A DNA stretch of 40,077 nucleotides from a virus. The stretch covers positions 1 to 40,077 of IMG/VR virus record IMGVR_UViG_3300043399_000551, one strand, 5' to 3'. The notes beneath the pieces are model-generated. The model did not search any database. It saw only the letters and a program-made list of their open reading frames with translations, and was not told the origin of the DNA. The position numbers were made by a program, and so were the translations under genes. Below, one piece after another: positions 2,520-39,747 of this stretch (position 1 is the first letter of the stretch; the number at the start of each line of letters is the position of its first letter).

Positions 2520-4582
2520 TGGCATCGCTCCAAGACCTTGAGGCCGCCCTCGTCAACGCAGACAAGGCGGGCGACGCCGATGCCGCGCGCCGACTGGCCG
2601 TAGCCGTGCGCGATGCCCGCGCCAACCAGTCTGCCGCCGACCGAATCCCAGGGGCTGGCCCAGCTCCTCAGAAGCAAGAGGAGCATGGGATTGCCCAGCG
2701 CATTGGAAACGAGATTGTCGGCGCTGGCGAGGCGGCCCTCAGCATGGCGTCGGCCATCCCTGCAACAGTGGCGGGCGGCGCGGGCTCAACGCTGCAAACT
2801 GTGGCCGGCCTGATTCACGCAGCGCTTGGAAATGATGAACAAGCCCGAGCGCTCATCAGTGACCCAAATTTTGAGCGCACCATGCAATCCATGGTCTACC
2901 GCCCGCGAACTGATGCTGGTCAACGCGACGCAGAGGCGGCCATGAACTTCGTGGCGCCGCTTGCCGGTCTTGGCGGCGAGGCCGCTGCGCTGTCGCAGGC
3001 GATGAGGCTGGGCCGATCCGGCGCAACCGCCGGGACAACCGCGCGGGCTGCTACTGAGGGCATAGCCCGTGACGCCGGGGCTATAGTTAGCCCAGCCGTA
3101 GGTGAGGCTGCGGCAGCGGGGGCGGCAAAGGCGATTGACGCCACGGCCAACGCCGCGCGCACTGTGCAACGCAGTGCAACCACGCTTCCTAGTCGGGCTT
3201 GGGCGAAAATCTCCAAGCAAGAGTCGACGCCTACGCCTGGCACCATGGGCAGCGCTGGCGCGGCAGGCACCGATGTGGCAGCGCAGCGCGTGGCAACGGC
3301 AGAAAGTGTCGGCTTGACAGGCGAGGCCGCATTGACGCGCGGGCAAGCCACGCGCGACCCGGCACAGCTCAAGTTCGAGACCGACACGGCCGGTAAAAAC
3401 ATGGAGCTTGGCGGCGCCATCCGCCAGCGTCGAATTGCGCAAAACGAGGCGCTTCTTCGCACCATCGAAAACGACATTGACTCCACCGGGGCAATCAGTC
3501 CGACCGTGCGGGCAACTGGTAAATCTGTTGACAAGGCTCTCACTGCTCAATACGCACGAGACAAAGCCAGTGTAGACGCCGCCTATACAGCGGCCCGCAA
3601 ATCGCCGGAAGCTGGGCGCATTGTTGACCAGACAGCACAAGTGACAATCGGCGAGGGCGACCGCGCAATCACCGGGACGCCAATAGACTACATCAACCAG
3701 CAGCCCACAGGGCTTCCAAGTTCTGCGGTTGCTGATTCGGCGCGCCAGTACGCCGTGAAGCTAGGCATCGCCGACATGGAAAACGGCAAGCTCGTCCCGC
3801 GCCCCGCAACCATCCAGCAAATGGAAGATTGGCGCTCGTCCATCAGCCAGTCGATTGACAGTATGAAGGACGCAGATATCAGGCACGGGACGATTATGAA
3901 GGGGCTAATTGACGCGCAGACAGAGCCCGCGATCGGCCCGATCTTCCGCAACGCCAGAAACATGCGCACCCGACTGGCGCAGAATTTTGAGGACCGCGCG
4001 ACGGTCGCAAAACTGCTATCCAAAAAGCCTGGCACTCAAGATCGAGCCGTTGCGCTTGAAGACGTGTTTGACCACTCGATAATGAAGGGAAGCCTTGATG
4101 ACGTGCGGAACATGCGCCGTATTCTCCAACGCGGTGGAGAAGATGGCGCGCAGGCATGGCGCGAGCTACAGGGGCAGACGCTGAAGCGCATTCGAGACGA
4201 CGCAACCAAGAGCGTAGCTGCGGATTCCGCTGGCAACCGCGTCCTGTCTCCTGCGGCTCTGGACAAGTCAATCCGCGCCCTAGACCACGATGGCAAGCTG
4301 GAATTCATTTTCGGCAAGCTGGGTGCTCAGCGGTTGCGCGATATTAACGACATCGCTCAAGTTGCCAAAACGGTCCCGCCAGAAGCCGCGATCAATTTCT
4401 CAAACACGGCAACCACGCTTTTGACGGCATCGGCGGACCTTGGCGCGGCACTTGTTACCGGCGTCCCAGCTCCTCTTGCAACAGCGACGAAGCTGGGCCT
4501 CAAACACATCAAGGACCGCAATCTTAGAGCGCGCATCAATGATGCCTTGTCCTACAATCCAAGCGAACAGAAGAGGCCGTAA
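2519..4582 (+). CDS. P22 gp16-like DNA ejection protein
   Basis: The product has 687 residues and is third in the ejection cluster, the position and approximate size of P22 gp16. The N-terminus carries the motif LEAALVNADKAGDADAARRL (about residues 5-24), common in large phage internal proteins. Residues 60-110 are hydrophobic and small-residue rich, consistent with membrane insertion during ejection. The C-terminal half is helical and charged. I looked for a lytic transglycosylase or muramidase motif and saw none. Confidence 0.78.
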   Translation: MASLQDLEAALVNADKAGDADAARRLAVAVRDARANQSAADRIPGAGPAPQKQEEHGIAQRIGNEIVGAGEAALSMASAIPATVAGGAGSTLQTVAGLIHAALGNDEQARALISDPNFERTMQSMVYRPRTDAGQRDAEAAMNFVAPLAGLGGEAAALSQAMRLGRSGATAGTTARAATEGIARDAGAIVSPAVGEAAAAGAAKAIDATANAARTVQRSATTLPSRAWAKISKQESTPTPGTMGSAGAAGTDVAAQRVATAESVGLTGEAALTRGQATRDPAQLKFETDTAGKNMELGGAIRQRRIAQNEALLRTIENDIDSTGAISPTVRATGKSVDKALTAQYARDKASVDAAYTAARKSPEAGRIVDQTAQVTIGEGDRAITGTPIDYINQQPTGLPSSAVADSARQYAVKLGIADMENGKLVPRPATIQQMEDWRSSISQSIDSMKDADIRHGTIMKGLIDAQTEPAIGPIFRNARNMRTRLAQNFEDRATVAKLLSKKPGTQDRAVALEDVFDHSIMKGSLDDVRNMRRILQRGGEDGAQAWRELQGQTLKRIRDDATKSVAADSAGNRVLSPAALDKSIRALDHDGKLEFIFGKLGAQRLRDINDIAQVAKTVPPEAAINFSNTATTLLTASADLGAALVTGVPAPLATATKLGLKHIKDRNLRARINDALSYNPSEQKRP

Positions 4583-14458: not shown

Positions 14459-14653
14459 ATGAACAAAGCCGAAGCAAAAGCCATCGTCGCCCGCATCAAG
14501 AACCTGACCGAGTTCTCTCGGAAATCCGGTGTCGCTCGTCGCACGCTGGACAGGATCAAGGCGGGCACTGTTGAACCAACCCGGGGTACTTTGGCCCTGC
14601 TGTCTGCAGGCATCGCCAAGATCAAGCCCAAACTCAAGGAGCAGGAAGAGTGA
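14459..14653 (+). CDS. Small Cro/CI-type HTH regulator
   Basis: The product has 64 residues. A helix-turn-helix is seen around residues 18-42 (EFSRKSGVARRTLDRIKAG), of the Cro/CI type, and the C-terminus is basic with no dimerisation or peptidase domain. There is no Shine-Dalgarno because the ATG sits at the predicted transcription start, as for lambda cI from PRM. It is the only Cro/CI-type protein found, so it is the best candidate for binding the dispersed GCGCCANNTGGCGC sites. The next gene begins at an overlapping GTGA. Confidence 0.8.
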   Translation: MNKAEAKAIVARIKNLTEFSRKSGVARRTLDRIKAGTVEPTRGTLALLSAGIAKIKPKLKEQEE

Positions 14654-16490: not shown

Positions 16491-16714
16491 TGAACGCAAG
16501 CGACCGCAGCCTTATACGACAGGCGTGCGCCTGCTGGGTTAGTGCAGAGTCAGAAAGTGCCGCCATCTCCAATCACACTCTCGGGAACGCGCGGAGCGCG
16601 CTTTACTGGCGTGCTCGTTCAGTTGTCGTGCATGACCGCGTATTGCGGCTTATTGACAGTTCTTCATCCTGGCAGGACTACAACAATATGACGCCAAAGG
16701 ACGCCAAGAAATGA
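16490..16714 (+). CDS. 74-residue hypothetical protein
   Basis: ATG 16490 follows AGGAGG by 7 nt and overlaps the preceding TGA by one base; a GTG immediately before is in frame. The product is mostly helical and basic. No known domain. Confidence 0.6.
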   Translation: MNASDRSLIRQACACWVSAESESAAISNHTLGNARSALYWRARSVVVHDRVLRLIDSSSSWQDYNNMTPKDAKK

Positions 16715-16965
16715 CAACCACAGAACAAGACCTCCGCCGCCGCGTGGAGGCTGGCGAGACGCACGGCCAGATTGCCGCCTCGCTCGGCATGTGCCGCACT
16801 CATGTCGCGTCGGCGTGCGCTGTGCTTGGCATAAAGCGACCGCGCAAGGCCAAGCCTGCCAATTCACCCCGCCCGCCAGTCATCCCGACAACCAGCTACG
16901 GCGTGGACTCGTCAGAGCTGCTGCGCGCCATGGCTGGGTTTGCGCGCCCATCCTCCAGGCTTTGA
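16711..16965 (+). CDS. HTH-type DNA-binding protein
   Basis: The product has 84 residues. Residues about 8-35 (VEAGETHGQIAASLGMCRTH to VASACAVLG) form a homeodomain-like helix-turn-helix; the second half is basic and Pro-rich. It lies just before the replication module and may regulate or aid it. Coupled to the previous gene by 4 nt. Confidence 0.7.
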   Translation: MTTTEQDLRRRVEAGETHGQIAASLGMCRTHVASACAVLGIKRPRKAKPANSPRPPVIPTTSYGVDSSELLRAMAGFARPSSRL

Positions 16966-16967
16966 CA

Positions 16968-16996
16968 TTGCCCGCCGTGGCACCAAGGCGTAGAAT
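16968..16996 (+). promoter_or_regulatory. Putative promoter of the replication operon
   Basis: TTGCCC (16968-16973) and TAGAAT (16991-16996) are 17 bp apart, predicting a start near 17003 and a leader of about 120 nt. A perfect TTGACA lies at 16962-16967 but is 23 bp from the -10. There is no GCGCCA operator, so this promoter is outside the main regulon. Confidence 0.5.
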
Positions 16997-17030
16997 TGGG
17001 CCATCGCCGTGAGAAGCGAATAGAGCCGGA

Positions 17031-17122
17031 CAGTCCTCATTGGGGTCGGTCTGGGACCGTATATACCTGTGAAGGTGTGGGCTCCGGAATTCTCACCCCG
17101 GGCCGACCACCAATGAGGATTG
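17031..17122 (+). promoter_or_regulatory. Structured leader RNA sequestering the initiator ribosome site
   Basis: 17031-17055 pairs with 17097-17122: 25 base pairs with three G-U pairs and one bulged A (17109). Inside the 41-nt loop, ACCT-GTGA-AGGT (17065-17076) makes a hairpin with a GNRA-type tetraloop, extendable to 17062-17079. The 3' arm contains the ribosome site GAGGA (17115-17119), so translation of the initiator gene should be off when the stem forms. It could be a riboswitch, a protein-regulated or temperature-sensitive switch, or a site acting at the DNA level. Pairing is read directly from sequence; function is inferred. Confidence 0.75.
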
Positions 17123-17125
17123 AAA

Positions 17126-18013
17126 TTGATTGTCGACCCAGACTTTTTCGACCACTGGCGAACGGGCATGGTGATCCATGCTCTGAACGATCAGGCGGCA
17201 CCCGTCTACATCATGCGCCTTTGGGCTCATTGCCAGGATCGAAAGGCTGACTCATTCGTCATGCCTACAGCCGGCCTGCGGGCTCAGTGCAAATGTCCTG
17301 CTGACGCTGAGACGTTCGAGAAGGCGCTCATCGATGCCGGCTTCATCGCCCGCGATGGTGACACTGTGACGGTCATCGGGTGGGCTGAAAAGAACGCCTC
17401 ACTCATCGCAGCATGGCGCAACGGTGGGACTGGCGGGCGACCAAAGAAGAACCCAGCGAAAACCCATGGGTTAGCCACGGGTAACCCAGCGCTAACCCAG
17501 CTCGATCCCATGGATAACCAAGAAGAAACCCATGGCGAACCCATGGCGAACCCACGCGTAACCGATAAGATAAGAGAAGATAAGATAAGAGAAGATGGGA
17601 TTAGAGAAGAGCCCACATCTTCGCTTCGCTCAGATGTTCCCCCTCGCGCTTCGCGCTCGTCGGACGATATGCCCGACGGATTCTCAGAGTTCTGGACCGT
17701 TTGGCCAAGGTCGAGCCGTAAGGGCGGGAAGACTGAGTGCCTGAAGGTCTGGAAGTCTCGGAAGCTGGAACCCCTCAAGACCGAAATCGTGGCCCACGTC
17801 AAAGCAATGACTGGGAGTCACGATTGGACGAAAAACGGGGGCGAGTACATCCCGGCGCCTGTGGTGTACCTGCGGGCTGCGAAGTGGGATGGCGCGGAGG
17901 TGCAGCAGAGGGCGAGCATTCAGACGATTGGCGGCAGCAACTCAACAAGCCGCGCAGATGCCACCAGGCGGGCGCTAGGGCTTTTTCAGAGCGGGGATGT
18001 GATCGATGTTTGA
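17126..18013 (+). CDS. Lambda O-like replication initiator with internal origin
   Basis: The product is about 295 residues. The N-terminal domain (FFDHWRTGM, YIMRLWAHCQDRK, FEKALIDAGFI, VIGWAEKNASLIAAWRNGG) fits the initiator/replisome-organiser family with winged-helix-like DNA binding. A low-complexity linker (about 105-165) is encoded by iteron repeats. The C-terminal domain (FSEFWTVWPRSSRKGGK ... EYIPAPVVYLRAAKWDG) matches the phage replication C-terminal domain that recruits the helicase loader. TTG 17126 has GAGGA 6 nt upstream; TTG 17120 is an alternative. No ATG is available in frame. The 3' end overlaps the P-like gene by 8 nt. Confidence 0.8.
   Translation: MIVDPDFFDHWRTGMVIHALNDQAAPVYIMRLWAHCQDRKADSFVMPTAGLRAQCKCPADAETFEKALIDAGFIARDGDTVTVIGWAEKNASLIAAWRNGGTGGRPKKNPAKTHGLATGNPALTQLDPMDNQEETHGEPMANPRVTDKIREDKIREDGIREEPTSSLRSDVPPRASRSSDDMPDGFSEFWTVWPRSSRKGGKTECLKVWKSRKLEPLKTEIVAHVKAMTGSHDWTKNGGEYIPAPVVYLRAAKWDGAEVQQRASIQTIGGSNSTSRADATRRALGLFQSGDVIDV
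17450..17608 (+). other. Probable replication origin (iterons plus AT/purine-rich repeats)
   Basis: Inside the initiator gene lie many AACCCA-based repeats: 17450, 17461 (palindrome AACCCATGGGTT), 17483, 17494, and a tandem set AACCCATGGCG at 17527-17537 and 17538-17548 with AACCCACGCG at 17549-17558. Directly after come two perfect tandem copies of GATAAGATAAGAGAA (17564-17578, 17579-17593) and a degenerate third (17594-17608). Iterons followed by an asymmetric A-rich tract within the O-type gene is the architecture of the lambda origin. Confidence 0.75.
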
Positions 18014-32133: not shown

Positions 32134-32174
32134 GCCCCCGTAAGGGGCAGTGGCCGCCATTCAGCCTGTGAATG
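32134..32174 (+). other. Two hairpins in the coat-gene leader
   Basis: GCCCC-CGTAA-GGGGC (32134-32148) and CATTCA-GCCTG-TGAATG (32158-32174) lie between scaffold and coat. Neither has a U-tract, so they are more likely mRNA stability or translation elements for the highly expressed coat than terminators. Confidence 0.45.
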
Positions 32175-32219
32175 AGACAACGAGACCCTTAACGTTTTCT
32201 CATTCAAAGGAATTGAATC

Positions 32220-38522: not shown

Positions 38523-39747
38523 CAAAACAATCCTAGCCCCGCTCACGCGGCAGAGGCTGCAGCAGTTTCTCCCAACTCACGAACTTGTCAAATATTTCGA
38601 GGAGCTGCTAAAGATTGTCCCGGGCGACACCAATGCAATCATTGATTTGGTTGAGGAGGTGGCAAATCAGGCATCTAACGCATCAGCGCAATCTCGCGCG
38701 GCTCGGGCATTTACCGATTCGGTAGCGCGCGATGTGTCCGACCTATCGGCCAGACCATACAAGCCAGCACAGACCAATTCACCAGCTCTAGACTATATCG
38801 ACTTCAGAAAGTCGGCGCCCCACGCTGAGGTGCCGCGCCGGATGGTTTGGAATGATGTTGATGACACTATCAACCTGCACCACCTTGACGGCGTTACCCA
38901 ACAAATCGGGCTTGAGTCGTACATTCGCGTCATCAATACATCCGGCGCCACAATTACAAACGGCACTGTTCTTGGGTTTGGAGGTGTTTCTTCTGGGGTC
39001 CCAATCGGGGTCAAATACATTGCCGATGGCACTATGCCAATCGGTTATCTTGGCGGCGTTGCAACGCAAAACATCCCCAATGGTTCGATTGGTCGCGTCA
39101 CGGCATTTGGCTTTGTGCGTGGCATTGATACATCGGCGTTCACCGCTGGGGCGCTGCTTTACGCATCGCCAACAACTCCCGGCGCGATCACGTCAACCAA
39201 GCCAACGGCCCCGCAGTTTGCAATCCCGATTGGAGTCGCTAGCGTCATCAGCTCGACCGCTGGCGAGATTTTTGTTCGACCAATCCTTGAGCAAACTAAA
39301 CACTACGGCAGGTTTAACAAAACCACTAACCAAACGCCAGCGGCAATAAATACCGCCTACACGATCACTTTCGATTCCGCAAGCACTGCGAACGGCATCA
39401 GCATCGGTTCTCCCGCATCTAGGCTTGTTATTGCAAACGCTGGCCTTTACTCGTTTTCGTTCAGCGTTCAGCTTGTCAGCGGTTCTGCGTCCGTCAAAAA
39501 CGTTTGGGTATGGTTGCGCAAAAACGGAGCAGATATCGCAAACTCTTCGCTGAAACTGTCACTAGAAAGCGCAACGGCGATCACAACGCAAAGTAGGTCT
39601 GTTTTTGAGAGCGTTGCCGCTGGCGACTATATAGAACTCATGTGGGCGGCCGATAGCACAAACGTTACACTGTCTGCAGTGGCGTCAACGGCATTTGCCC
39701 CCGCCGCGCCATCCTGCGTCATGTCAATCCATCAAATTCAACAGTAG
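38515..39747 (+). CDS. Tail fibre/needle-position protein with C1q/TNF-like knob
   Basis: The product has 410 residues and sits where P22 encodes the gp26 needle. Residues 1-70 are helical with heptad-like ENLLDLVE-type segments (AIIDLVEEVANQASNASA). Residues about 128-260 follow a phage fibre module (RVINTSGATITNGTVLGFGG, GFVRGIDTSAFTAGALLY, ITSTKPTAPQFAIPIGVA). Residues about 270-410 (FDSASTANGISI, VIANAGLYSFSFSVQL, ESVAAGDYIELMWAADSTNV) fit a C1q/TNF-type jelly roll, a trimeric receptor-binding fold. It is probably a receptor-binding tail protein. Confidence 0.75.
   Translation: MVDKTILAPLTRQRLQQFLPTHELVKYFEELLKIVPGDTNAIIDLVEEVANQASNASAQSRAARAFTDSVARDVSDLSARPYKPAQTNSPALDYIDFRKSAPHAEVPRRMVWNDVDDTINLHHLDGVTQQIGLESYIRVINTSGATITNGTVLGFGGVSSGVPIGVKYIADGTMPIGYLGGVATQNIPNGSIGRVTAFGFVRGIDTSAFTAGALLYASPTTPGAITSTKPTAPQFAIPIGVASVISSTAGEIFVRPILEQTKHYGRFNKTTNQTPAAINTAYTITFDSASTANGISIGSPASRLVIANAGLYSFSFSVQLVSGSASVKNVWVWLRKNGADIANSSLKLSLESATAITTQSRSVFESVAAGDYIELMWAADSTNVTLSAVASTAFAPAAPSCVMSIHQIQQ

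Follow-up and report, generated by a model that had tools for sequence, protein, structure and literature searches.

A C4-like structured leader predicted to mask the ribosome site of a lambda-O-type replication initiator

The region 17003–17122 of the viral sequence, which was analysed over its whole length of 40,077 nucleotides (the window), is probably a compact and divergent antisense module of the C4 type, placed on a lambda-O-type replication initiator gene and keeping its translation off by default. The long stem, the masking of the Shine–Dalgarno (SD) site in the fold, the exact complementarity of the a and b segments and their C4-type spacing were all computed. Judged from its sequence, the element is C4-like in architecture and divergent beyond formal membership of the family; its descent from C4 is plausible. 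All features of the module and its gene are located on the plus strand.

The stem is formed by pairing of 17031–17055 with 17097–17122 and contains 25 base pairs, a single bulged nucleotide (A17109) and three G-U pairs (17033–17120, 17050–17103 and 17052–17101). It encloses a hairpin (17062–17079, UAUACCU-GUGA-AGGUGUG) capped by a GUGA tetraloop of the GNRA type. These features had been described in the first-pass annotation, and all of them are present in the minimum-energy fold (−65.3 kcal/mol, z = −4.06). None of 200 shuffles equals this fold; the free energy by itself is unexceptional for the GC-rich 40-kb window. The stem is the longest helix with at most one bulge in the window, and the best helix among 60 whole-window shuffles has 22 pairs. 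The upper stem (5′ strand 17044–17055) is P1-like, both in the fold and in a weak alignment to the C4 model, and the lower stem (5′ strand 17031–17043) is an anti-SD extension that canonical C4 does not have. The enclosed hairpin is P2-like and, compared by eye, resembles P2 (ACACCC-GCGA-GGGUGU) of the C4 locus L118. The fold also contains a short P3-like helix (CCG, 17057–17059, with CGG, 17085–17087), the 5′ strand of which precedes P2, unlike in canonical C4. Two segments are largely unpaired in the ensemble, the b′-like antisense segment GGCUC (17080–17084) and the a′-like antisense segment UUCUCAC (17090–17096). The latter directly adjoins the stem's 3′ arm and occupies the junction where a′ is found in C4. 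The 3′ arm (17097–17122) contains, around the bulged A17109, the CCACC (17107–17111) found in C4, as seen in both the fold and the C4 model alignment.

The SD site of the initiator, GAGGA (17115–17119), is located in the lower stem, within the 3′ arm as originally annotated, and in the fold of 17003–17140 it is paired with a probability of at least 0.99. In the model, the SD is about 99.7% paired throughout 25 to 60 °C, and opening of the lower 13 pairs costs about 23 kcal/mol. Removal of the 5′ arm at 17042 lowers the predicted SD pairing to about 0.3–0.9. Masking of the initiator ribosome site by the structured leader is well supported by this modelling.

A sigma70-like promoter (TTGCCC-17 nt-TAGAAT, 16968–16996) is predicted upstream, with a start near 17003; it is the sole one within 16500–17400 (900 bp, 0.2 expected). 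As it lies just upstream of the stem, the 5′ arm should be present in the mRNA. The minimum-energy fold places a leader hairpin, UCGC-(8-nt loop)-GCGA, at 17004–17019. Its loop presents an a1-like target, GUGAGAA (17009–17015), which is the exact complement of the seven bases of 17090–17096, and its 4-bp/8-nt geometry is that of c4-a1b1 in true C4 loci. Among 79,804 window positions tested, the a1/a′ match is unique to 17009–17015. A b1-like target, GAGCC (17023–17027), is complementary to 17080–17084; its start is offset from that of a1 by 14 nt, as it is in C4. The modelled pairing of a1b1 with a′b′ (−15.6 to −18.4 kcal/mol) is weaker than the lower stem, and the predicted default state is therefore off. 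An 84-residue open reading frame at 16996–17250 was set aside as a coding candidate; it overlaps the initiator gene by 125 bp and is without support.

The positives for the geometry comparison were 31 C4 loci, 30 from Comamonadaceae genomes together with P1. In nearly all true C4 loci, a1 is exactly complementary to the 7-nt junction that precedes the P1 3′ strand. It begins one nucleotide into the 8-nt loop of a 4-bp hairpin, and b1 is found at +14, give or take a base or two. The window matches every C4 spacing (UCGC-C-GUGAGAA-GCGA-AUA-GAGCC, and a gap of 5 nt between b′ and a′). At the exact offsets it fits 7/7 for a1, 4/4 for the hairpin and 5/7 for b1, a score of 16, with b pairing over 5 bp compared with the usual 6–9. 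This score is attained by one of 100,000 leader shuffles and by no other of the 79,804 window positions, probabilities that are somewhat optimistic because the complementarity was noticed before the geometry was applied. A detector preset to C4 geometry recovers 26 of the 31 true loci, and for the window it returns a stem of 25 and a b of 5. In 701 kb of non-C4 phage DNA it finds matches of 12–13 bp only, to which later loci add one of 15 bp (L125). On 16 Mb of shuffled window it finds none with a stem of at least 18 bp and none with a stem of at least 15 bp combined with a b of at least 5. Agreement with the three-stem fold of C4 (P1–P2–P3), in which the tetraloop-capped P2 stands between P1 and P3, is ambiguous: P1 and a tetraloop-capped P2 are found, and the short P3 encloses P2.

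Covariance models place the element outside the family. It scores 12.2 bits with the Rfam C4 model (RF01695; gathering cut-off 45), which, though weak here, puts the a′ consensus on 17091–17096. No Rfam family reaches its gathering cut-off anywhere in the window. With a C4 model of 21 sequences, the element scores 13.2 bits, which is fourth in the window and within background; with 4426–4526 at 20.1 bits, the profile does not establish homology to C4. A model made from the window element only was searched against 381 kb, and its best non-self matches were in two C4s (11.5 bits); without filters, C4s were only mildly enriched among the weak matches. For the leader, no match to c4-a1b1 (RF03163) or isrK (RF01394) is listed up to an E-value of 10. 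Downstream there is no exact copy of a2: the best candidate, AUGAGGA over the SD, agrees at 5/7 positions, compared with 7/7 in 26 of 27 canonical C4 loci. No terminator was found between a1/b1 and the stem. Owing to the sub-cut-off scores, the lack of an exact a2, the odd P3, the short b and the missing terminator, we do not file the element as a C4 member.

The closest architecture is that of P1/P7 C4 with its c4-a1b1 leader. In both, a promoter is followed by a 4-bp hairpin that carries a1 in its 8-nt loop, by b1 at +14 and by a long stem. Within the stem are a hairpin with a GNRA or UUCG loop, then b′ and, after a gap of 5 nt, a′, which adjoins the 3′ strand of the stem; CCACC occurs at the 3′ end. 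Upstream of P1 c4 there are an a1 of 7 nt and a b1 of 8 nt, the start of b1 being 14 nt beyond that of a1; a2 and b2 come after c4, at the icd SD. Canonical C4 is processed by RNase P to an RNA of about 77 nt, which acts in trans. The window differs in an 11-bp stem extension over the SD, a displaced P3 5′ strand, the absence of exact a2/b2 and of a terminator between a1b1 and C4, and a next gene that is the replication initiator rather than icd/ant. It had been suggested that such an element is without precedent at lambda-type O genes, which is too strong: the P4 CI RNA, which scores as C4 (74.9 bits), represses the P4 replication genes by terminating transcription prematurely (PMC4825925), and in P1 the region that leads to repL begins with c4. 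P4 CI resembles the present element in being an antisense RNA, in belonging to a replication operon's leader and in having its target (seqA) upstream of the RNA; CI, however, lies well upstream of alpha, whereas here the initiator's own SD is within the stem. IsrK of Gifsy-1, which is related to the a1/b1 leader, has a terminator of its own at its end and works in trans on the antirepressor operon (orf45), where it unmasks a structured ribosome binding site (PMC4825925). As proposed here, this kind of leader RNA pairs with a structured region around a ribosome binding site further downstream, but the window has no such terminator and the gene is a replication initiator, not an antirepressor operon. 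Lambda OOP RNA, antisense to cII (PMC12197685), likewise occupies a small RNA region between cII and O; the RNA described here is instead sense to O and masks an O-type SD. Twelve C4 antisense RNA matches are present in a single Comamonadaceae genome (G040, 2.7 Mb), which recalls the C4-like expansion reported in Acinetobacter baumannii (PMC5320573).

The main weakness of the assignment is that the element is known from a single record. Conservation upstream of homologous initiators, named as a check in the first-pass annotation, was not found: the stem is absent at about 20 related loci from IMG/VR and genomes, which yields no covariation. Rfam detects no C4 near initiator relatives in the 16 loci scanned. 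No DNA similarity was found in phage records, plasmid records or 401 Comamonadaceae genomes, and no second example was detected with the window-only model in 399 genomes of the order. In IMG/VR, exact patterns of both stem arms gave no match, and the 66 one-arm matches are at the level of chance. A search by way of the upstream gene and its relatives gave none, and C4 geometry at the initiator is absent from relatives of the downstream gene and from annotated Pseudomonas, Xanthomonas, Erwinia, Serratia and Sodalis phages. Other RNA features were observed at these loci. One (L003, 2590–2655, plus strand), located upstream of an Acidovorax initiator homologue at a distance of about 350 nt, is a borderline match to int-alpA RNA (36.0 bits against a cut-off of 35.8). 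This locus and L112 belong to the same Acidovorax facilis contig (86,949 bases), which contains a canonical C4 at 39117–39210, about 20–25 kb from the initiator homologue. Another (L075, 320–548, minus strand) is a Group I intron (86.8 bits) less than 2.5 kb from an initiator relative.

The gene at 17126–18013 encodes a phage replication initiator (phrog_9474 / phrog_270), the relatives of which are mostly 47–74% identical over the N-terminal domain. Since the relatives all begin M-(I/L)-(V/I)-D-P-D-F, the start is most likely TTG 17126, located 6 nt after GAGGA, rather than TTG 17120. Iteron-like AACCCATGG repeats inside the gene (17464–17546) are the likely origin, which in lambda is also located inside the initiator gene; similar repeats are carried by the relative L003. 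The phage encodes a P22-like terminase and NinG. Neither a tyrosine integrase nor a clear CI repressor was found in the whole record; a weak 64-residue HTH_3 protein is encoded at 14459–14650.

We infer a transcript, a trans-acting processed RNA, switching and a role in immunity. The transcript from the 16968–16996 promoter would fold with the initiator SD hidden in the lower stem, leaving translation off as the default state. The loops a′ and b′ would recognise the leader's own a1 hairpin and b1 (17009–17027), either within one transcript or between two copies of it. As 3 nt separate the end of b1 from the foot of the 25-bp stem, a1b1 could hardly pair with a′b′ in the same molecule while the lower stem was fully closed, for steric reasons. 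This pairing is therefore the likely handle, either on whether the SD is masked or by allowing a resident copy to silence the initiator of an incoming phage. Control could be exerted by pairing in trans of a processed copy, as in P1 and P4, by unmasking through a leader RNA, as with IsrK, or by RNase P or RNase III cleavage. A more tentative proposal, which we hold with some doubt, is a one-piece switch in which the element is both an antisense immunity RNA and a lid on the SD in cis; mutually exclusive pairings (a1b1 with a′b′, or the lower stem) would govern both phage replication and immunity to superinfection, perhaps with no CI-type repressor involved.

A simpler explanation, which we regard as rather unlikely, is that the stem is a plain cis silencer that hides the SD, sets low or conditional initiator synthesis and is opened by RNase III (or RNase P), the match of the a and b segments being a coincidence. 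The near-perfect 25-bp helix is RNase III-like, and RNase III acts in the lambda N leader; the nearly complete SD pairing and its decrease on loss of the 5′ arm also fit. This explanation would, however, not account for the exact match of a1 to a′ over 7 nt, the placing of a1 in a 4-bp/8-nt hairpin or the C4 spacings, a combination whose score is reached by one shuffle in 100,000. The inverted repeat might instead function as DNA with no role as RNA, as a cruciform or part of the origin (the alternative offered at first) or as a MITE-like insertion remnant. Its length in a gene-dense phage and its absence from related initiator loci are consistent with this. A replication element should, however, track the initiator family, and as the stem does not travel with the initiator an origin role is disfavoured; like those of lambda, the iteron-like repeats are internal to the initiator gene. 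Phage and plasmid records hold no further copy, the G-U pairs and GNRA loop favour RNA, and a promoter lies just upstream, so that a DNA element is quite improbable.

A functionless chance hairpin in an intergenic gap would agree with a single record and the failure to find conservation. Against it, the stem is unmatched in the 60 window shuffles, C4 geometry with at least 18 bp is unmatched in the 16 Mb of shuffles and the hairpin is positioned exactly over the SD, and we give it slightly less weight than a DNA element. Least probable is control of the initiator by a ligand-binding riboswitch or an RNA thermometer, although an SD in a structured leader behind a promoter would suit either. The element matches no ligand-riboswitch family in Rfam, no conserved aptamer was found in the relatives, and a thermometer was rejected as the modelled SD, still paired at 60 °C, shows no release in the physiological range. 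Of the translational control by ligand, protein, temperature or antisense RNA that was first envisaged, the control itself agrees with the masking of the SD in the fold, and ligand and temperature are disfavoured. Antisense RNA is the trigger with evidence among those proposed, namely a sequence anatomy that matches C4-type antisense RNAs. The first interpretation is partly supported overall.

Few phage immunity systems are known to be based on RNA, and C4 and CI RNAs belong to these. An RNA of the C4 type fused to the ribosome site of an initiator would show divergence past current covariance models and direct action on DNA replication. The geometric rule of an a1 hairpin with an a′ junction could find further such RNAs that Rfam misses. 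Elsewhere in the window, a strong 18-bp inverted repeat, possibly a terminator, is located between two genes at 32165–32210.
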